A stretch of 43,973 bases of DNA from Coriobacteriia bacterium (GTDB lineage: Bacteria; Actinomycetota; Coriobacteriia; Anaerosomatales; PALSA-660): NCBI GenBank assembly GCA_025361335.1, contig JANYAK010000001.1, forward strand, positions 1 through 43,973, written 5' to 3'. The first letter of the stretch is position 1; each line of letters begins with the position of its first letter. The notes below the pieces were generated by a model, which saw nothing but the letters and a program-made list of their open reading frames with translations, was not told the DNA's origin and searched no databases. Positions 26,770 to 43,714 of this stretch are shown here, one piece after another. The translations under genes and the position numbers were made by a program.

Positions 26770-26862
26770 TGGCGGAGAGGCAGGGATTCGAACCCTGGAT
26801 ACGGGGGATACCCGCATAACGGTTTTCGAGACCGCCGCATTCAACCACTCTGCCACCTCTCC
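26770..26862 (-). tRNA. tRNA-Ser(CGA)
   Basis: On the minus strand the sequence begins GGAGAGGTGGCAGAGTGG and closes with CCTCTCC, discriminator G and an encoded CCA (26770-26772). The anticodon loop CTCGAAA gives CGA, reading UCG. A long variable arm (about TATGCGGGTATCCCCCGTA) and the TTCGAAT T-loop are typical of serine tRNAs. All seven acceptor pairs match. Confidence 0.96.
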
Positions 26863-26903
26863 GCAAGGTGGCGCGCCCGCATGCTGGCGGGCACGGCTCA
26901 CGC

Positions 26904-26933
26904 AGTATAGCGAGCGGGCGCTCGGGGCGGCAA
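26904..26933 (-). promoter_or_regulatory. Promoter of tRNA-Ser(CGA)
   Basis: Minus-strand -35 TTGCCG (26933-26928), an 18-nt spacer and -10 TATACT (26909-26904), 41 nt before the mature 5' end of the tRNA. The same TTGCC(G/C)...TATACT pair precedes the other minus-strand serine tRNA. Confidence 0.6.
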
Positions 26934-27028
26934 CATCAGCAGGCGTGCGGCGGCCCGTGTTGGCGGCCCCTCCGACGAGTTTCCTCTATGCTTCATCTCA
27001 GGGAGTTCCATGCTGAGACGGGGGCGAG

Positions 27029-27925
27029 ATGGGTTCTGTCATCGAGTTCGCACGGCGCAGGCCGGTCCTCACGAACGTGATCCTGTGGGTACTGGCGATC
27101 GTCATCACGCTGGCATGTGTGGCGTGGCAGGACACGACGGGGCCCACGTACCCCCTCAGCGGGACCGTGAGCACGGCCAAAGGGCCGGTCTCGTTCGAGT
27201 TCCTCCGTAGCGAGACTATCGGCACAGACCTCAAGGTGATGCTCGTGGAGCCGGTCCCGGCGGGCGTGACGGGCTACGTGAAGTTCCGCCGCTACACCTC
27301 GAACGAAGCGTGGAAGGAGCTCCCCCTCACGTCGGGCGAGTTCACATACTCGCGGCGCGGCAATGTCGAGACCCGCAAGGGCTTCGGCGCGGAACTGCCG
27401 TCACTCAAGGAGAGGGCGGGCAAGTACGAGTACTTCGTATACCTGGACGACGGTGCCGGGAAGCCGTTCTCCGTCACGGGCGGCAAGCCGATACTGGCCC
27501 GCTACAAGGGCGAGGTCCCGATGACGGTCCTGGCGATCCACATCCTCACGATCTTCCTGTCGATGGCATTCGCGGTGCGAACGACGCTCGAGGCGGCGAT
27601 CGACGGCACGTTCAAGTGGATGATCTGGGCGACCATAGTGTCGTTCGTCCTGGGCGCCTTCGTGCTCGGGCCGCTCGTCCAGTGGTACGCGTTCCGCGTG
27701 TGGTGGTCGGGCTTCCCGCTCGGCGGCGACTGGACCGACAACAAGGTCGTGGTCGAGCTGCTGGCGTGGCTGGTGGCCGCGGCCTTCAACCTGGGCAAGC
27801 GGCGGAACCGGTGGGTGGTGCTCGGCGCGGGCCTCGTCACGCTCGCCGTGTACTTCATCCCGCACAGCATCTTCGGGTCCGAGTACAACTACGGCGGCGG
27901 CAGGAGCCGGGGCACCGCGGGGTAG
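27029..27925 (+). CDS. Membrane protein of unknown function
   Basis: 298 residues. One N-terminal transmembrane helix (VILWVLAIVITLACVAW) is followed by an extracellular beta-rich domain of about 130 residues (YPLSGTVSTAKGPVSFEF, TDLKVMLVEPVPAGVTGYVKFRRY, YEYFVYLDDGAGKPF), then three or four helices (VLAIHILTIFLSMAFAV, WMIWATIVSFVLGAFVLGPL, VVELLAWLVAAAF, WVVLGAGLVTLAVYFI). The helix-beta-helices pattern is known from uncharacterised proteins in many phyla; I cannot name a function. ATG start with GGGGGCGAG directly upstream. It is flanked by two minus-strand tRNA genes and appears monocistronic. Confidence 0.78.
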   Translation: MGSVIEFARRRPVLTNVILWVLAIVITLACVAWQDTTGPTYPLSGTVSTAKGPVSFEFLRSETIGTDLKVMLVEPVPAGVTGYVKFRRYTSNEAWKELPLTSGEFTYSRRGNVETRKGFGAELPSLKERAGKYEYFVYLDDGAGKPFSVTGGKPILARYKGEVPMTVLAIHILTIFLSMAFAVRTTLEAAIDGTFKWMIWATIVSFVLGAFVLGPLVQWYAFRVWWSGFPLGGDWTDNKVVVELLAWLVAAAFNLGKRRNRWVVLGAGLVTLAVYFIPHSIFGSEYNYGGGRSRGTAG

Positions 27926-27965
27926 GCACGTCGGCATCGCGATCATCAGCCCCCCGGGCGAACAC

Positions 27966-27996
27966 GAAGGGCCCGCTCTTGGTGAGCGAGCCCTTC
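27966..27996 (-). terminator. Hairpin between the 27029-27925 gene and tRNA-Ser(GGA)
   Basis: 13-bp stem: GAAGGGCCCGCTC (27966-27978), loop TTGGT, GAGCGAGCCCTTC (27984-27996), with a single G-U wobble on one strand. It lies 10 nt beyond the 3' end of the minus-strand tRNA and 40 nt beyond the stop of the plus-strand gene, so it could end both transcripts. No long T-run follows in either direction. Confidence 0.6.
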
Positions 27997-28005
27997 GACT
28001 ATGCA

Positions 28006-28098
28006 TGGCGGAGAGTCAGGGATTCGAACCCTGGATACGGTTTAAGGCCGCATACACGATTTCCAGTCGTGCGCCTTCAGCCTCTCGGCCAACTCTCC
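28006..28098 (-). tRNA. tRNA-Ser(GGA)
   Basis: The minus-strand sequence opens GGAGAGTTGGCCGAGAGG and closes with ACTCTCC, discriminator G and an encoded CCA (28006-28008). The anticodon stem-loop CGACTGGAAATCG gives anticodon GGA, reading UCC and UCU. A long variable arm is present, as expected for serine. Confidence 0.96.
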
Positions 28099-28147
28099 CA
28101 AAGCGCCCTCTCGCGGCGGCCGTGGCCGGTCGCCGAGCGCAAGCGCG

Positions 28148-28176
28148 AGTATAGCGAGGCCGGTCCCGACGGGCAA
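28148..28176 (-). promoter_or_regulatory. Promoter of tRNA-Ser(GGA)
   Basis: Minus-strand -35 TTGCCC (28176-28171), a 17-nt spacer and -10 TATACT (28153-28148), about 50 nt before the tRNA 5' end. Confidence 0.6.
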
Positions 28177-28206
28177 CGCGACACAGCGGGCGCCCGCGCC
28201 CGACCG

Positions 28207-28437
28207 CTATGCCAGGTCGCGTACCTTCTGCGACGCCGCGGTGGCGAGGTCGGCGCCGACCACCATCCTGAGCTGGGTCGTGAGGTTCGACGCGATGTCG
28301 GTCAGATCGGCCCGCGTGATGGTGTCGGCGGTCTTTCCGATGCGACGCGCCTCGAGGTCCACGGACACCGACGCGAGCACGGTGCCCACGATCGGTCGCA
28401 GGGTCTCCTCGATCCGCTCGGCGAGCAGGTTAGGCAT
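28207..28437 (-). CDS. Small hypothetical helical protein
   Basis: 76 residues, predicted soluble and mostly alpha-helical (LLAERIEETLRPIVGTVLASVSVDLEAR, ADLTDIASNLTTQLRMVVG). No motif that I recognise. Its ATG lies inside the end of the upstream membrane-protein gene (8-nt overlap), so it is translated by coupling and probably works with that protein. Confidence 0.65.
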   Translation of the reverse strand: MPNLLAERIEETLRPIVGTVLASVSVDLEARRIGKTADTITRADLTDIASNLTTQLRMVVGADLATAASQKVRDLA

Positions 28438-28891
28438 CGCGCACCCCGACCGTGTCTTCGCCGGAGGCCTGCGCGCGCGCCAGGACCTCGGATGACGATG
28501 CGGCGTCGAGGAAGCGCTTGAGCGCCGCCCGAACCCGATAGAAGTACACGCACAGCAGGACCATCGTCGCGATTATGAGGACTTGTCCCCCGAGAAGGAC
28601 CTGGCTTGCGGCGGCGCCATCGTCCACGAAGCGGGCAGCCCATGAGGCGAGCACGGATGCCCCCATGCAGGAGCACGCCGCGACCACATACGAGATGTTT
28701 TCCGCCATCGCGGAGCCCGCGGCGACCCGGCTGAGGCCGAAGGCGATCACGAGCAGGGCGATCGCGACGAGCATGGTGGTCGCGCCGACCGCCCAGTCGA
28801 TGGCCCCGTATGCCCGCTCCTGGGCCAGCGCCACGGTGGGCACAGACCACGACAACAGGGCTGCCAAGACGGATGCGGTTCCGCGCGACAT
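28430..28891 (-). CDS. Small membrane protein of unknown function
   Basis: 153 residues with a signal-like N-terminus (ASVLAALLSWSVPTVALAQ), then three hydrophobic segments (ATTMLVAIALLVIAFGL, ISYVVAACSCMGASVLASW, VLLGGQVLIIATMVLLCVYFY) and a polar C-terminal tail. The arrangement is loosely like small pore or ATP-synthase-c-like proteins, but no family can be assigned. ATG start with GAGGAG 6 nt upstream; coupled to the small downstream gene by overlap. Confidence 0.7.
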   Translation of the reverse strand: MSRGTASVLAALLSWSVPTVALAQERAYGAIDWAVGATTMLVAIALLVIAFGLSRVAAGSAMAENISYVVAACSCMGASVLASWAARFVDDGAAASQVLLGGQVLIIATMVLLCVYFYRVRAALKRFLDAASSSEVLARAQASGEDTVGVRDA

Positions 28892-29004
28892 GCTCGTCTC
28901 CTCGTGTTGCGGGTCAGCGTTTCAGCGCGTCACCAGCGCGGCCGGCGATCGAAGGCGCCCACTACAGATATCGGTATCGAGTGTCTCTGCCTGAATGGCC
29001 GCGG

Positions 29005-29502
29005 TCAGATGCGGGGCGATCCCGCCGCGTCATCGGGCCCGAATCCACCGCCATCACGACGCAACCTCCCGAAGAACGCCCTGAGCAGGCTCCCGCACTC
29101 ATCGGACATGACTCCCGGCGTGACCTCGAAGCGATGGTTGAGCCTCTCGTCGTCCGAAAGGTCGTACAGCGTGCCCAACGCGCCGGCTTTCGGGTCCGAC
29201 GCCCCGTACACGCAACGGGCGACGCGGGCCTGGTGCATGGCGCCGGCGCACATGGGGCACGGCTCGAGCGTGACGTACACGGTGCAGTCCGACAACCGCC
29301 AGCGGTCCAGCCGCCGGGCGGCTTCCCGGATGGCGATCATCTCGGCGTGCGCCGTCGGGTCGCGATGCGTCTCGCGCAGGTTGTGGGCTCGCGCGACCAG
29401 ATCCCCGTCGCATACCACGACTGCGCCGATGGGAACCTCGCCCAACTCCGCGGCGGCGCGCGCCTCGTCCAGCGCCACGCGCATGTAGGTCTCGTCAGCC
29501 AT
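29005..29502 (-). CDS. tadA: tRNA(Arg) adenosine-34 deaminase TadA
   Basis: 165 residues of the zinc-dependent cytidine/adenosine deaminase fold. The catalytic H52-A-E54 (TAHAEM) and the zinc cysteines C82 and C85 (LEPCPMC) are in place, with PIGAVVV upstream. TadA converts A34 of tRNA-Arg(ACG) to inosine so that one tRNA reads CGU, CGC and CGA. Its substrate tRNA is encoded 400 nt away at 29899. No ribosome binding site precedes the ATG; instead a TATACT -10 box ends 6 nt before it, so the message is probably leaderless. Confidence 0.96.
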   Translation of the reverse strand: MADETYMRVALDEARAAAELGEVPIGAVVVCDGDLVARAHNLRETHRDPTAHAEMIAIREAARRLDRWRLSDCTVYVTLEPCPMCAGAMHQARVARCVYGASDPKAGALGTLYDLSDDERLNHRFEVTPGVMSDECGSLLRAFFGRLRRDGGGFGPDDAAGSPRI

Positions 29503-29508
29503 GCGCGC

Positions 29509-29518
29509 AGTATATACT
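29509..29518. promoter_or_regulatory. Palindromic double -10 element for tadA and tRNA-Ser(TGA)
   Basis: AGTATATACT is a perfect 10-nt palindrome. Read on the minus strand, TATACT (29514-29509) ends 6 nt before the tadA ATG. Read on the plus strand, TATACT (29513-29518) lies 20 nt before the mature tRNA-Ser(TGA) 5' end. One symmetrical sequence can therefore serve two divergent start sites. No strong -35 is seen in either direction. Confidence 0.55.
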
Positions 29519-29538
29519 TCCGTGGTGCGGCCGCCCGC

Positions 29539-29626
29539 GGAGGGGTGGCAGAGCGGTTGAATGCGGCGGTCTTGAAAACCGCTGGCCCGCAAGGGCTCGT
29601 GGGTTCGAATCCCACCCCCTCCGCCA
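29539..29626 (+). tRNA. tRNA-Ser(TGA)
   Basis: Acceptor GGAGGGG (29539-29545) pairs with CCCCTCC (29616-29622), followed by discriminator G and an encoded CCA. The anticodon loop TCTTGAAAA gives TGA, reading UCA (and UCG by wobble). The long variable arm TGGCCCGCAAGGGCTCG marks a serine tRNA. Confidence 0.96.
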
Positions 29627-29706
29627 GCCGCTCGCCCGGGGCGCGGCACCTCCCGAACCCCGCGCCGCCGTGCTAGAATCCTCCCGCGTCCGGATGGGGC
29701 GCCCAC

Positions 29707-29800
29707 GGAGAGTTGGCCGAGTCGGCTGAAGGCGCTCGCCTGCTAAGCGAGTAAAGGGCTTGAAGCCCTTTCCAGGGTTCGAATCCCTGACTCTCCGCCA
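29707..29800 (+). tRNA. tRNA-Ser(GCT)
   Basis: Acceptor GGAGAGT pairs with ACTCTCC, followed by G and an encoded CCA (29798-29800). Anticodon stem-loop CTCGCCTGCTAAGCGAG gives anticodon GCT, reading AGC and AGU. A long variable hairpin AAAGGGCTTGAAGCCCTTT is present. A TAGAAT box at 29674-29679 could be its -10 element. Confidence 0.96.
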
Positions 29801-37589: not shown

Positions 37590-38867
37590 CTACTCGATCA
37601 CGTCCACACCCATGTACGGCCTCAGCGCCTCCGGCACCGTGACCGAGCCGTCGGCGTTCTGGAAGTTCTCCAAGATGGCGGCGACGGTCCTGCCGACGGC
37701 GAGCCCGGAACCGTTCAGCGTGTGCACGAAGCGGCCGCCCTTGAACCCCGCGGGGTCGCGATACCTGATGGACGCACGCCGCGCCTGGAAGTCCCAGCAA
37801 TCGCTGCAGGAGGATATCTCCTTGTACCCGTCGTACGAGGGCAGCCAGACCTCGACGTCGTACGTCTTGGCCGCCCCGAAACCGAGATCGCCGGTGCACA
37901 GCTCGATGACCCGATAGGGCAACTCGAGCAGCTCGAGGATGTGGCACGCGTCCGTCAGCATGCTCTCCAGCTCGTCCAGCGATGTCTCGGGAGTGGCGAA
38001 CTTGACCAGCTCGACCTTGTCGAACTGGTGGACGCGGATCATCCCGCGCGTGTCGCGGCCCGCGGCGCCGGCCTCCTCGCGGAAGCACGGCGTGAACGCT
38101 GTGTAGCGCAGCGGCAGCAAAGACGCGTCGACGGTCTCGTCGCGGTGGATGTTGGTCAGCACGACCTCCGCCGTCGGGACCAGGTACAGCGGCGGATCGC
38201 TCTGGGTCTTGAAGAGGTCGTCCTCGAACTTGGGGAGCTGGCCGGTACCGGTGAGCGTCTCGGCGTTGGCCAGGATGGGCGGCCACCATTCCTTGTAGCC
38301 GCGCGCGGTGTGCGTGTCGAGCATCATGTTGATGACCGAGCGCTCCAACCGCGCTCCGAGCCCGCCCATCAGCACGAAGCGCGACTGAGCGAGCTTCACG
38401 GCGCGCTCGAAGTCGATGATGCCGAGGTCGGGACCTATGTCCCAGTGCGCCTTGGGCTCGAAGTCGAAGACGCGCGGGGTTCCCCAGCGCCGGACCTCGG
38501 GATTGTCGTTCTCGTCGCGCCCGACCGGCACCGACTCGTGAGGCAGGTTCGGCACGGTCAGCAGCATGTCGCGCGCGTCCGCCTCGATCGTGTCGAGCAG
38601 CGCCTGGAGGGCCGAGAGCTCCTCGTTGATCGAGCGGACCTCGTTCTTGAGCGCCCCGGCGGCCTCGGTGCGGGGCTCCTTCATCATCTGGCCGACCAGC
38701 CGCGACGCCTCGTTGCGGCGGGCCTGCAGCTTCTCGACCTTGGCGATCAGGTCGCGGCGTTCTTCGTCGATCCCGATGAACGCGTCGAGGTCCCAGGACG
38801 AGGCGCGGTCGGCAAGCGCGGCGCGTACGGCGTCGGAGTGCTCGCGGACATAGCGTGCATCGAGCAT
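37590..38867 (-). CDS. serS: Seryl-tRNA synthetase
   Basis: 425 residues, the usual length of bacterial SerRS. An N-terminal coiled-coil arm that grips the long variable arm of tRNA-Ser spans about 25-110 ([21 protein letters not shown]...). The class II core carries motif 2 ([22 protein letters not shown]) and motif 3 ([20 protein letters not shown]). TAEVVLTN precedes motif 2 as in other SerRS. It charges the four serine tRNAs encoded 8-11 kb upstream in this window. ATG start with GGGGAGG 5 nt upstream. No T-box leader is seen in the 74 nt before it. Confidence 0.97.
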
Positions 38868-38941
38868 GGGAGCCTCCCCCGGCGACTTCACTGCAACGTA
38901 CCTTGTCGGAGTATATCCGACGCCACGCCCCGGCAACCCGC

Positions 38942-39743: not shown

Positions 39744-40088
39744 ATGGTGACCACGGTGCTGACCGACGAGTTCGTGGAGGCGATGGCCCGGCTGGACGGG
39801 GCTGCCGCAAAGCGCACCGCCGCGTTCCTCGACAAGCTCGTCAAGGAGCCGGAGGCGTCGAGCCTCAACCTTGAGATGGTGAACGACTCGGGGGATCGCA
39901 CCATACACTCGATGCGCGTCAACTCGGACCTGAGGGCGATCGTCGGCATCGACGGGCAGCGAATGGTTCTCATGTACGTGGCCCACCACGACGCAGCGTA
40001 CGCATGGGCGCGGACACACTGCCTGCGATGCCACCCGCACACGGGTGAGCTCGAGATAGTGCCGATCGAGGCATCCGATATCAACTAG
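39744..40088 (+). CDS. Stand-alone ParE-like domain normally fused to UvrD-type helicases
   Basis: 114 residues. The sequence fits the RelE/ParE-like domain found at the N-terminus of many UvrD-like helicases: an FLDKLVKEPEASSLNLEMV helix-strand pair, an SMRVNSDLRAIVGIDG strand pair, then VLMYVAHHDAAYAWARTH. The HHDxAYxWA motif is the strongest match. Here the frame stops after this domain and no helicase follows, so it is either a free toxin-like protein without an antitoxin or a remnant of a helicase gene. A TAGTAT box (39732-39737) ends 6 nt before the ATG, so translation may be leaderless. The gene ends 1 nt before the hgcA promoter region. Confidence 0.72.
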   Translation: MVTTVLTDEFVEAMARLDGAAAKRTAAFLDKLVKEPEASSLNLEMVNDSGDRTIHSMRVNSDLRAIVGIDGQRMVLMYVAHHDAAYAWARTHCLRCHPHTGELEIVPIEASDIN

Positions 40089-40117
40089 TTCGACATACTT
40101 CGAAATAGTGATATACT
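40089..40117 (+). promoter_or_regulatory. hgcA promoter with overlapping inverted-repeat operator
   Basis: -35 TCGACA (40090-40095), a 16-nt spacer and -10 TATACT (40112-40117). The predicted start is about 40124, at the first ATG of hgcA. A perfect inverted repeat TTCGA (40089-40093), N6, TCGAA (40100-40104) covers the -35 and spacer. It sits inside a larger imperfect dyad (ATATCAACTAG on the left, ATAGTGATAT on the right). Position and form are those of ArsR/SmtB-type metal-sensor operators. The regulator is not encoded in this window. Confidence 0.65.
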
Positions 40118-40124
40118 GCGCCTC

Positions 40125-41264
40125 ATGATGACCGGACTCGACACCATTACTCCCGACGCGCAGCCGGCCCAAGCCGACGCCTGTTGAGGTCCGAACACGC
40201 TGCCGTGCAGCAGCGTCGCCCGTCCCCGACTCGACCAGACGTTCGTGACCGGACACGTCACCACCCTGGCGGGCCCGGTTCCCGTGGTATCCGCGAAGCT
40301 CACCGCGAGAGACCGGCTGGGCGGCTGGAAGGTCCGTTGGGGCATCCGTCGGTACTCGTACACCGTGGACCCGGGCCTGTACGCGCTCGGGGCTCCGAGC
40401 GACACGTCCCCCGTTCTCGTCACGGCGAACTACAAGCTGTCGTTCGACGCGCTGCGCTGTCGGCTCGAAGGCCGGGCCGCGTGGATCCTCGCCCTCGACA
40501 CGCGGGGCATCAACGTCTGGTGCGCGGCGGGAAAGGGCACCTTCGGGACCGCCGAGGTTGCACGCCGCATCGAGGCCGCGGCGCTGAACCAGGTCGTCTC
40601 CCACGGAGTCGTCGTCCTTCCCCAGCTTGGAGCGCCCGGGGTCTCGGCGCCCGAGGTGCGGCGCCGCAGCGGGTTCCGCGCCGTCTGGGGGCCGGTCCGC
40701 GCCCAGGATCTGCCCGCGTTCATCGACGGGGGTCTGCGAGCGACCCCCGAGATGCGGCGCGTCCGGTTCCCGCTGCGCGACCGCCTCGTGCTGGTGCCGC
40801 TTGAGATGACCGCAGTCGCGGGCATCGCCCTGGCGGTGCTCGTCGTCGCGGCCGCGGTGGCCGGGTTCGGGCCCGGCGGTTTCTCGCTGGCGCGGGTGCT
40901 GGCCGGAGTCCTCCCTCTGGCAGCCGTTCTGGCCGCCACGACGCTCGCGGGAACCGTGCTGACGCCGCTGCTGCTGCCGTGGCTCCCGGGGCGGATGTTC
41001 TCCGCGAGGGGCTTCGCGGTCGGCGCGGTGGCTGCCGCGTTCGTGCTGCCGTGGATGCCCCCGACGTACTCGACCCTGCGTCTGGCTGCGGCCGCACTCA
41101 CGATGCTGGCCGGGTCGTCTTACCTCGCGATGAACTTCACCGGCTCGTCCACGTTCACGTCCCTCTCCGGGGTGGAGAAGGAGATGCGAGCATCCCTGCC
41201 GTGGCAGGTGGCCGGCGCGGTCGCCGCTGCCGCGCTGTGGATCGCGGGAGGGTTCGTCCGATGA
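40125..41264 (+). CDS. hgcA: Mercury-methylation corrinoid protein HgcA, probable selenoprotein
   Basis: HgcA carries a methyl-corrinoid and transfers the methyl group to Hg(II). The diagnostic cap-helix motif NVWCAAGK is at 130-137, with the cobalt-liganding Cys133. Family blocks LGGWKVRWGI, PGLYALG, TANYKLSFD, SHGVVVLPQLGAPGV, FRAVWGPVRAQDLPAF and TPEMRRVRFPLRDRL follow, and about five transmembrane helices fill the C-terminal third. A start at GTG 40245 would have no binding site and cut into a conserved block. Going upstream, the same frame stays open except for one TGA (40185-40187) to ATG 40125, which lies 7 nt after a -10 box. The segment has GC-rich third positions and reads ...AQADAC-TGA-GPNTLPC. 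I therefore annotate 379 residues with Sec at 21; a true stop plus internal start remains possible. The stop overlaps the hgcB ATG. Confidence 0.92.
40185..40216 (+). other. In-frame TGA and candidate SECIS hairpin in hgcA
   Basis: TGA at 40185-40187 follows TGT (Cys). Nine nt later a perfect 7-bp stem ACGCTGC (40197-40203) and GCAGCGT (40210-40216) encloses the loop CGTGCA, so the loop begins 17 nt after the TGA. Bacterial SECIS elements put their apical loop about 16-37 nt after the UGA and usually have a G (often GU) in it, as here. A weaker lower pairing GGTC(C)GA with TCGACC (40230-40235) could extend it. Fold and function are unproven. Confidence 0.5.
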
Positions 41265-41584
41265 GCGACCTCCGCTACCTCGATGACGTCGTCACGCTGA
41301 CCTACGACCGGGCGAAGTGCACGGGCTGCCAGCAATGCACCTACGTGTGCCCTCATGGAGTCTTCGTCATGGACGGCAACCGCGCCGTGATGCGCGACCG
41401 GGACGCCTGCATCGAGTGCGGCGCCTGCGCCCTCAACTGCGATTTCGACGCGATCCACGTGCGCGCCGGCGTGGGCTGCGCGGCGGGCATCATCGCGTCG
41501 TGGTTCCGGGGCAAGGGCGGCGAGGTCTCGTGCGGGCCGGAGGGTGCCGGCGCCGGCAAGGGCACTTCAGGCGGCTGCTGCTGA
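41261..41584 (+). CDS. hgcB: Mercury-methylation ferredoxin HgcB
   Basis: 107 residues. Two 4Fe-4S motifs: C20, C23, C26, C30 (CTGCQQCTYVCP) and C50, C53, C56, C60 (CIECGACALNCD). The HgcB-specific features are a lone Cys73 (VGCAAG) and the vicinal pair C106-C107 at the very C-terminus. HgcB reduces the corrinoid of HgcA, and the C-terminal Cys pair is thought to bind Hg(II) and hand it over. An additional Cys91 lies in the Gly-rich tail. ATG overlaps the hgcA stop (ATGA), with GGGAGG 9 nt upstream. The longer open frame upstream overlaps hgcA and is not used. Confidence 0.94.
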   Translation: MSDLRYLDDVVTLTYDRAKCTGCQQCTYVCPHGVFVMDGNRAVMRDRDACIECGACALNCDFDAIHVRAGVGCAAGIIASWFRGKGGEVSCGPEGAGAGKGTSGGCC

Positions 41585-41659: not shown

Positions 41660-42415
41660 TCAGGCTTCGGCGATCCGCAGGCCGTGGAGCGCCGCCCCGA
41701 GAGCGCCGACCGTCTGCGACTCCTCCGGAACGATCACCAGGCCCACGAAGCCGTCGGCCAGCAGGCGCACCATCGCCGGATTCTTGGCGACCCCTCCGGC
41801 GAACACCAGCGGACCACGGGCTCCCAGCCTCGCCAGCGCCCCCAGTGAGCGGGCGGCGATCGACTCGTGCAGTCCGAGCGAGATGCGCCCCCGGTCCTCC
41901 CCGCGATGCAGAAGGCCGGTGACCTCGCTCTCCGCGAACACCGTGCACATCGACGACACCTTCACGCCGCGGTCGGCCCTCAGCGCCGCCGGCCCGATCT
42001 CGTCGAGCTCGAAGCCCAGAGCGCGAGCCATGACCTCGAGGAACTTGCCCGTCCCCGCGGCGCACTTGTCGTTCATCTCGAAGTCCGCCACTCCACCGGC
42101 GCTGTTGAGCGCGATGACCTTGGTGTCCTGCCCTCCGATGTCGAGCACGCTGGCCGCCCCCGGGTGGAGCGTGGAGGCCCCCAGCGCATACGCCTTGATC
42201 TCGGTGACGATGGTTGCGCCGAACGCCTCACGCGCGCTGTGGCGCCCGTATCCGGTGGCAACGAGCACATCATGCCCGTTGCGCTTCACCAGCGCGGCGG
42301 CGACGGCCTGCGGGTCGAAGCCCGAGTCGAGGACGACCGCGTCGGTCACGCGGCCATCCTCCAGCCACACGGCGTCGACCGTTCGCGAGCCTATGTCGAG
42401 ACCGAGGATGCGCAT
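41660..42415 (-). CDS. BadF/HgdC-type ATP-dependent activator (YjiL-like)
   Basis: 251 residues of the ASKHA ATPase family. The ATP-binding motifs LGLDIGSRTVDAV (start), DIGGQDTKVIAL (92-103) and FAGGVAKNPAM are intact. Two Cys, C118 (NDKCAAGTGKF) and C157 (SSMCTVF), are the ligands that let a homodimer hold one [4Fe-4S] cluster between subunits. These activators inject a low-potential electron into a partner enzyme on ATP hydrolysis. The partner gene ends directly upstream (stop and start abut), so the two form one operon. Confidence 0.93.
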   Translation of the reverse strand: MRILGLDIGSRTVDAVWLEDGRVTDAVVLDSGFDPQAVAAALVKRNGHDVLVATGYGRHSAREAFGATIVTEIKAYALGASTLHPGAASVLDIGGQDTKVIALNSAGGVADFEMNDKCAAGTGKFLEVMARALGFELDEIGPAALRADRGVKVSSMCTVFAESEVTGLLHRGEDRGRISLGLHESIAARSLGALARLGARGPLVFAGGVAKNPAMVRLLADGFVGLVIVPEESQTVGALGAALHGLRIAEA

Positions 42416-43714
42416 CTAGACTGCCGCCGGCTCCTTGACCATCTCAAGGAACGCCTCGACGCGGGTGGACAGCTGCCCGATGTCCTCCATCGAGTAGTCG
42501 GTGTCGATCTTGAGCACGGGGATCCCCGCTTCCTTGGCGGCCTTCTCGAGGCCGTACGCCTCGATCTGGTAGGGCGCGCAGAACTGCAGGGCGTAGTGGA
42601 CTATGCCGTCGACTTTGTTCTCCTTCGCCATGCGGATGACGTCGTCGAAGCGCGCGGTGTTGGGCGTGAAGCACGCGCAGTTGATGTCGAGGTACTTCTC
42701 CGCGACGCCGTCGAGGAGGTCGTCGAGCGTCTCTCCGTCCTCGGGAGTCAACTTGTCGTAGTAGCGCGATCCGGTGCACATCTCCTCGGCCACCACGATG
42801 CCCCCCGACTTCTCGATGATGTCGTGGACCTTCCAATTGGGGATCGCCATGGGCGAACCCGACACCAGGATGCGCGGTGCGCTCGCGGGAGCCACGCCGA
42901 CGCCGTCGGCGACGCGCTGCTCGAGCTCGTCGGCGATGGCGTTCACCATCTGCGTGAAGCGCGGGACGTCGTCGTAGAACGCCACCTGCACGGCGAGCAG
43001 GGCGTCCTTGCCCGAGATCGGCACCACGTCCGCGGCGCGCGCGGCGTTGAGGCGCTGGAGCGCGCGGCGCTTGCCGTTGACCTCGGCGATGGCGGCGGAG
43101 AGGTTCTCCGCCGTGACCTTGTTGCCGGTGAGCTCCTCGAGCGTGACGACGAGCCGGTCGATCTCCCCGCGCCAGGCTGCCATGTCGTTCGGCCGCTTCA
43201 TCTGCGGCAGCTCCATCACGTACAGGGGCGCCATCTCGCCGAAGATCTCGTAGGCCTTCTTCTTGCCGTCGCAGGTGGTCTCGCCGATGACCAGATCGGC
43301 CGATTCCACGTACGGGCAGACGCGGTCCATCTTGAAGCCGACGAAGCTCTTGATGAGCGCGCAGGTGTTGCGTGGCAAGACCTTCTCGACCTCGTTGTAG
43401 CCCCACTCGGCGCCGGCGCACAGTCCGATGTCCAGCGCGCCGAGCGCGCGGATGATCTCCTCGGGGACGTAGAGACAGAACGTCCCGACGACCTTGCCGC
43501 CCTTCGCCTTGTGCTCCATGAGCTCCTGGATGCGCAGACCGTGGATCTCGGAGACGACGAAGTCGAAGTACTTCATCCCTTCGGGGCGCCCCTCCTGACC
43601 GAGGTACGCCCCTTGATACATCTGCGGGATCGCCTCGAGCAGGGCGCAGTGGGCGCGCAGGTTCATGCCGAGTGCCTCCCACATCTCGCCGTATGTCTCC
43701 ATCGGGTCGGACAT
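42416..43714 (-). CDS. 2-hydroxyacyl-CoA dehydratase-like protein, double-cubane (YjiM/DCCP) type
   Basis: 432 residues of the HgdB/BcrC superfamily. Candidate cluster ligands: C80 (GTFCLYVPEE), C99, C118 (NTCALIKSF), C133, C148 (TTCDGKKK), C313 (EMCTGSRYY), C346/C348 and C379 (QFCAPYQIE). Only one large subunit and one activator are present, whereas true dehydratases have two different large subunits. That layout fits double-cubane cluster proteins, whose [8Fe-9S] centre reduces small molecules such as acetylene in vitro. The physiological substrate is unknown. ATG start with AAAGGAA 5 nt upstream. Confidence 0.88.
   Translation of the reverse strand: MSDPMETYGEMWEALGMNLRAHCALLEAIPQMYQGAYLGQEGRPEGMKYFDFVVSEIHGLRIQELMEHKAKGGKVVGTFCLYVPEEIIRALGALDIGLCAGAEWGYNEVEKVLPRNTCALIKSFVGFKMDRVCPYVESADLVIGETTCDGKKKAYEIFGEMAPLYVMELPQMKRPNDMAAWRGEIDRLVVTLEELTGNKVTAENLSAAIAEVNGKRRALQRLNAARAADVVPISGKDALLAVQVAFYDDVPRFTQMVNAIADELEQRVADGVGVAPASAPRILVSGSPMAIPNWKVHDIIEKSGGIVVAEEMCTGSRYYDKLTPEDGETLDDLLDGVAEKYLDINCACFTPNTARFDDVIRMAKENKVDGIVHYALQFCAPYQIEAYGLEKAAKEAGIPVLKIDTDYSMEDIGQLSTRVEAFLEMVKEPAAV

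Follow-up and report, generated by a model that had tools for sequence, protein, structure and literature searches.

The hgcA gene of an uncultured Coriobacteriia bacterium almost certainly encodes a selenoprotein, in which an in-frame TGA (40185–40187) would be read as selenocysteine (Sec21) directly after Cys20. Methylmercury is made by HgcAB, and the locus is predicted from its genes to be an HgcAB mercury-methylation pair. It lies near the right end of the window, the whole 43,973-nucleotide stretch of DNA analysed here, which is contig C30 of a 1.81-Mb draft genome. The initial annotation, made from the letters of the window, had proposed a Sec-containing HgcA with a Cys-to-Sec replacement; that proposal is supported by the selenocysteine machinery of the genome, conservation of the TGA, Cys-containing homologues and a covarying hairpin.

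The full-length hgcA gene (40125–41264, plus strand), as delimited by its frame and by its relatives, encodes 379 residues including Sec21 and stops at TGA 41262–41264. The product scores 425 bits against the NCBI equivalog model NF040863 (cut-off 275) and contains the cap-helix motif N-V-W-C-A-A-G-K at residues 130–137; on this score and motif it is assigned to the HgcA family of mercury-methylation corrinoid proteins. The adjoining hgcB gene (41261–41584, plus strand), expected of an HgcA family member, overlaps the hgcA stop codon and itself ends with TGA. It encodes a ferredoxin of the Cys form (GVGC) that scores 116 bits against NF040864 (cut-off 99) and ends in Cys-Cys. Adjoining hgcB and convergent with hgcAB are genes for a double-cubane-cluster reductase (NF040772, 485 bits) and an acyl-CoA dehydratase-type activase (41660–43714, minus strand). 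The contig also carries four tRNA-Ser genes (CGA, GGA, TGA and GCT), a tRNA-Arg gene and a seryl-tRNA synthetase gene (26770–29800 and 37590–38936). Seryl-tRNA synthetase also charges tRNA-Sec; no link of these tRNA-Ser and synthetase genes to hgcA was found on the contig.

Standard ORF calling gives a 339-residue HgcA that begins at GTG 40245–40247 (plus strand), the codon of Val41. The initial annotation described a frame reaching 40 codons upstream of this GTG, with one in-frame TGA between Cys and Gly-Pro and with GC-rich third positions on either side of it, and its statements on the sequence are all correct. From ATG 40125 to GTG 40245 there is no in-frame stop besides this TGA, and the Cys20-Sec21 pair (40182–40187, plus strand) is encoded by TGT (40182–40184) and TGA, followed by GGT CCG. 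ATG 40125 is the first ATG, GTG or TTG downstream of the preceding stop (TAG 40086–40088) and is situated 7 nt downstream of a TATACT box (40112–40117), as previously described. The box is part of a promoter-like site, TCGACA-N16-TATACT (40090–40117, plus strand), that matches the consensus at 10 of 12 positions (0.1 expected by shuffles) and is the sole such match within the 2 kb scanned. From this putative promoter, transcription may begin at ATG 40125 or very close to it, yielding a leaderless mRNA; no Shine-Dalgarno sequence precedes this ATG, and initiation there therefore rests on a leaderless transcript. Related genes can also start upstream of the TGA, several of them at a GTG behind a purine-rich, Shine-Dalgarno-like sequence that the window gene lacks. 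GTG 40245 is likewise preceded by no Shine-Dalgarno-like sequence, in agreement with the initial annotation, which had found no ribosome binding site there.

The sample used to examine conservation of the TGA comprised 400 genomes of the class, and an HgcA above the cut-off is encoded in 38 of them. The N-termini of these proteins are of three kinds, with a Sec pair, a Cys pair or no pair. The first has A/P-C-U-G-P with TGA at the identical codon and is found in all eight genomes of the window's family that were examined and in one genome (G104) of another family of the same order, making nine Sec genes with the window included. The second begins with MSECCGP, MSECCPP, MSGACC or similar; the Cys-Cys-Gly-Pro motif named in the initial annotation is real in Cys homologues, and all 13 Cys homologues checked within the class have TGC or TGT where the Sec genes have TGA. 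Since other HgcA proteins of the same class have no pair at all, the pair is not a requirement for every HgcA. The HgcA alignment is continuous across the TGA, and the relatives retain the upstream segment as well as the TGA. In the 35 codons around the TGA the nine Sec genes differ predominantly at third positions (558 differences, versus 340 and 293 at the other two), a pattern as in coding DNA. Two hgcA loci of the sample (L041 in genome G114, contig C41, and L042 in G096, contig C106) are stated to belong to different families and are identical over the stretches read, which suggests either recent transfer or a misbinned contig.

These comparisons bear on two explanations in which the TGA is not decoded. 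With 61 contigs and 92% completeness the genome is still a fragmented draft, as would suit an error in sequencing or assembly, or a pseudogene in decay, but the same TGA is present in nine separate genomes, including two independently named MAGs, and the remainder of hgcA and hgcB is intact. Recurrence in independent genomes refutes a sequencing error, and the probability of this explanation as a whole is negligible. Alternatively, the TGA could be a real stop, with codons 1–20 forming a short leader peptide, HgcA starting no earlier than GTG 40245, and the hairpin downstream of the TGA having a regulatory role. The standard ORF call agrees with this, and the NF040863 profile begins 12 residues past GTG 40245, so that a late-starting protein would have a nearly complete domain. 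However, the GTG start is not conserved, being GTC in six of the nine Sec genes; the Cys homologues read through in frame with Cys-Cys-Gly-Pro; and the third-position differences are concentrated with both sides of the TGA pooled. There is also a conserved DQPFVTG motif at this place, and a start at the GTG would drop the Phe before VTG, as the initial annotation had pointed out. In an AlphaFold2 model of HgcA (65 sequences, mean pLDDT 91.8) residues 31–40 have a pLDDT of 94 and the first strand comprises residues 41–47, so that Val41 is the first residue of an ordered strand and a start there would, according to the model, strip ordered residues. The GTC codons, the ordered DQPFVTG and the read-through Cys homologues lead us to reject the leader peptide with a late start, which is very improbable, in favor of translation through the TGA.

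The genome encodes what is needed for selenocysteine insertion. The tRNA-Sec gene (selC) scores 68.3 bits, over the gathering score, with anticodon TCA by ARAGORN, and selB, selA and selD (profile scores of 371, 593 and 378 bits, respectively) are within ~10 kb of selC, all on contig C28. With these four genes present, all of which the initial annotation had named as the ones to look for, Sec decoding is expected in this genome. The selD gene (L061 10714–11640, minus strand) has its own in-frame TGA near the start (...SSKAGUAAKYGPADL...) and is itself predicted to be a selenoprotein gene. Across the class, selB is over the cut-off in nine of nine Sec-HgcA genomes versus 22 of 29 other HgcA genomes; this co-occurrence is in the right direction and is not significant, because selB is present in most of the class. 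The dedicated machinery also argues against a genome-wide reassignment of TGA to an ordinary amino acid, for which nothing speaks beyond the in-frame TGA itself; such recoding is ruled out by the termination of both hgcA and hgcB at TGA, and its probability is vanishingly small.

A SECIS-like hairpin (40197–40216, plus strand) is located downstream of the TGA. Its perfect 7-bp stem (arms 40197–40203 and 40210–40216; ACGCTGC-CGTGCA-GCAGCGT) begins 9 nt past the TGA, as first described in the initial annotation. The published bSECIS model specifies a loop of 3–9 nt, a stem of 4–16 bp, a G in the first two loop positions, a distance of 16–37 nt from the UGA and a minimum free energy of at most -7.5 kcal/mol (PMC13188914); the window hairpin fits these constraints with a 6-nt loop, 7 bp, G at the second loop position, a 16-nt distance from TGA to loop, and -13.8 kcal/mol for 42 nt. 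The window contains 979 TGA trinucleotides, of which 0.8% are followed by a perfect hairpin of at least 7 bp at +5 to +15 and 9% satisfy the loose published rules at 7 bp or more, so that the hairpin alone, in one genome, is weak evidence and covariation is the stronger. All nine Sec genes have a hairpin at the same distance from the TGA, with differing stems (ACCTTGC/GCAAGGT, GTCTCGC/GCGAGAT and others). At locus L040 the stem is shortened to 5 bp. Pairing is retained in 96.8% of cells, and four of the seven pairs have changed on both sides. The pairing percentage and the covariation score are reached by none of 500 shuffles, while the count of two-sided changes by itself is within the shuffle range (reached by 100 of 500). 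Sliding the pairing partner destroys the pairing, and RNAalifold recovers the same stem unaided. Fold z-scores of single hairpins are uninformative for sequences this GC-rich.

In expression of the protein, SelB and tRNA-Sec would decode UGA codon 21 as Sec under the direction of the hairpin that starts 9 nt downstream, and the product would have Cys20-Sec21-Gly-Pro on a flexible arm at its N-terminus, before the corrinoid domain. The AlphaFold2 model has pLDDT values of 48–62 for residues 1–30, and the pair is therefore probably on a flexible arm. By analogy with HgcB, whose Cys94-Cys95 pair on a disordered tail is a proposed carrier of Hg(II) or methylmercury (PMC7305189), the Cys-Sec arm could be a mobile ligand for either of these mercury species close to the corrinoid; we regard a mercury-ligand role of Cys20-Sec21 as about an even chance. 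The main alternative, a real prospect that falls short of even, is that Sec is inserted and that the pair is a redox centre, either a selenenylsulfide switch or a site of corrinoid or substrate reduction. It is well established that Cys/Sec pairs serve in redox chemistry in many bacterial selenoproteins, for which there is a published motif list (PMC13188914), and SAM methylates the corrinoid of HgcA with the mercury half-reaction unresolved (PMC11588087). Against a redox centre, the proposed mercury carriers of HgcB are adjacent Cys pairs on disordered tails, and the HgcA arm is likewise of low confidence in the model. As a conserved pair on a mobile arm, Cys20-Sec21 is a testable candidate mercury-handling site; if the pair does handle mercury, the formation of methylmercury would in some lineages be linked to the supply of selenium. 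When an ORF caller ends the frame at the TGA, residues 1–40 of such an HgcA, the pair included, are missed.

Sec-containing forms extend beyond the Coriobacteriia. A scan of named genomes gave ~19 further HgcA proteins with an N-terminal Sec from other phyla, mostly from Desulfobacterota, and most of their genes have a hairpin of the GGCTC-AGGT-GAGCC type whose loop is 19 nt away from the TGA. A C-U-G-P match at a further locus (L046) is produced by the stop codon (TGA) that follows the terminal Cys-Cys of hgcB rather than by an N-terminal Sec. In a tree of the HgcA core that excludes the N-terminus, the Sec forms are interspersed among the Cys forms, with at least eight changes. The AU test rejects a single clade of all Sec forms (p = 1.9e-42) but does not reject one of the nine Coriobacteriia Sec forms (p = 0.495); the ambiguous L117 (ECUEMSGAGCC) was excluded from the change counts and from the all-Sec clade test. 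This history may reflect repeated gain, repeated Sec-to-Cys loss or gene transfer, which are indistinguishable in this sample. A tentative and rather doubtful extension is that Sec was adopted more than once at the same HgcA position (in Coriobacteriia and in Desulfobacterota, whose SECIS hairpins would be unrelated), or was swapped with Cys time and again, because the pair is the enzyme's working ligand for mercury or methylmercury.

A selenoprotein HgcA is already known in kind, having been reported in 2023. The list of bacterial selenoproteins in PMC13188914 includes both HgcA (motif CU) and HgcB (motif GVGU), after Haft and Gwadz 2023, and PMC11588087 names HgcA as a selenoprotein citing the same work; hgcA itself was already known in Coriobacteriia of the order OPB41 (PMC7438021). 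Relative to these review listings of the 2023 work, the present analysis adds an actinobacterial group, a covarying SECIS and evidence against a single Sec-HgcA clade. The motif-CU protein, as listed (Haft and Gwadz 2023, J Bacteriol 205:e00259-22; example WP_250697417.1), belongs to NF040863 and has Sec after Cys, as does the window protein with Cys20-Sec21, which would be a Coriobacteriia (Actinomycetota) member of this group. The selenoprotein HgcB with motif GVGU (NF040864, PMC13188914) places Sec in HgcA's partner in the pathway, while the HgcB of the window is the GVGC Cys form. Two loci of Desulfobacteraceae (L130 and L136) encode a GVGU HgcB with an in-frame TGA at the conserved Cys73 position; the HgcA at these loci is not a Sec form, and loci with Sec in both HgcA and HgcB are absent from the sample. 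The Sec-type HgcA proteins of Desulfobacterota (L072, L083 and L113, and L096 and L112 from Desulfacinum) resemble the window protein in having an in-frame TGA within the N-terminal arm, a short distance ahead of D-Q-P-F-V, and a hairpin downstream, but mostly have another hairpin and other residues after Sec (often CUP). In the cultured Desulfacinum hydrothermale and D. infernum (L096 and L112) Gly precedes Sec at the homologous place, and an adjacent Cys is therefore not universal. The Cys-type HgcA proteins of other Coriobacteriia (L035, L039 and L050) share the fold, with 47–50% identity to the window protein, and have at the corresponding N-terminal position a vicinal pair followed by Gly-Pro or Pro-Pro; they differ in having TGC or TGT for TGA, a shorter leader before the pair and often a second Cys pair further on.
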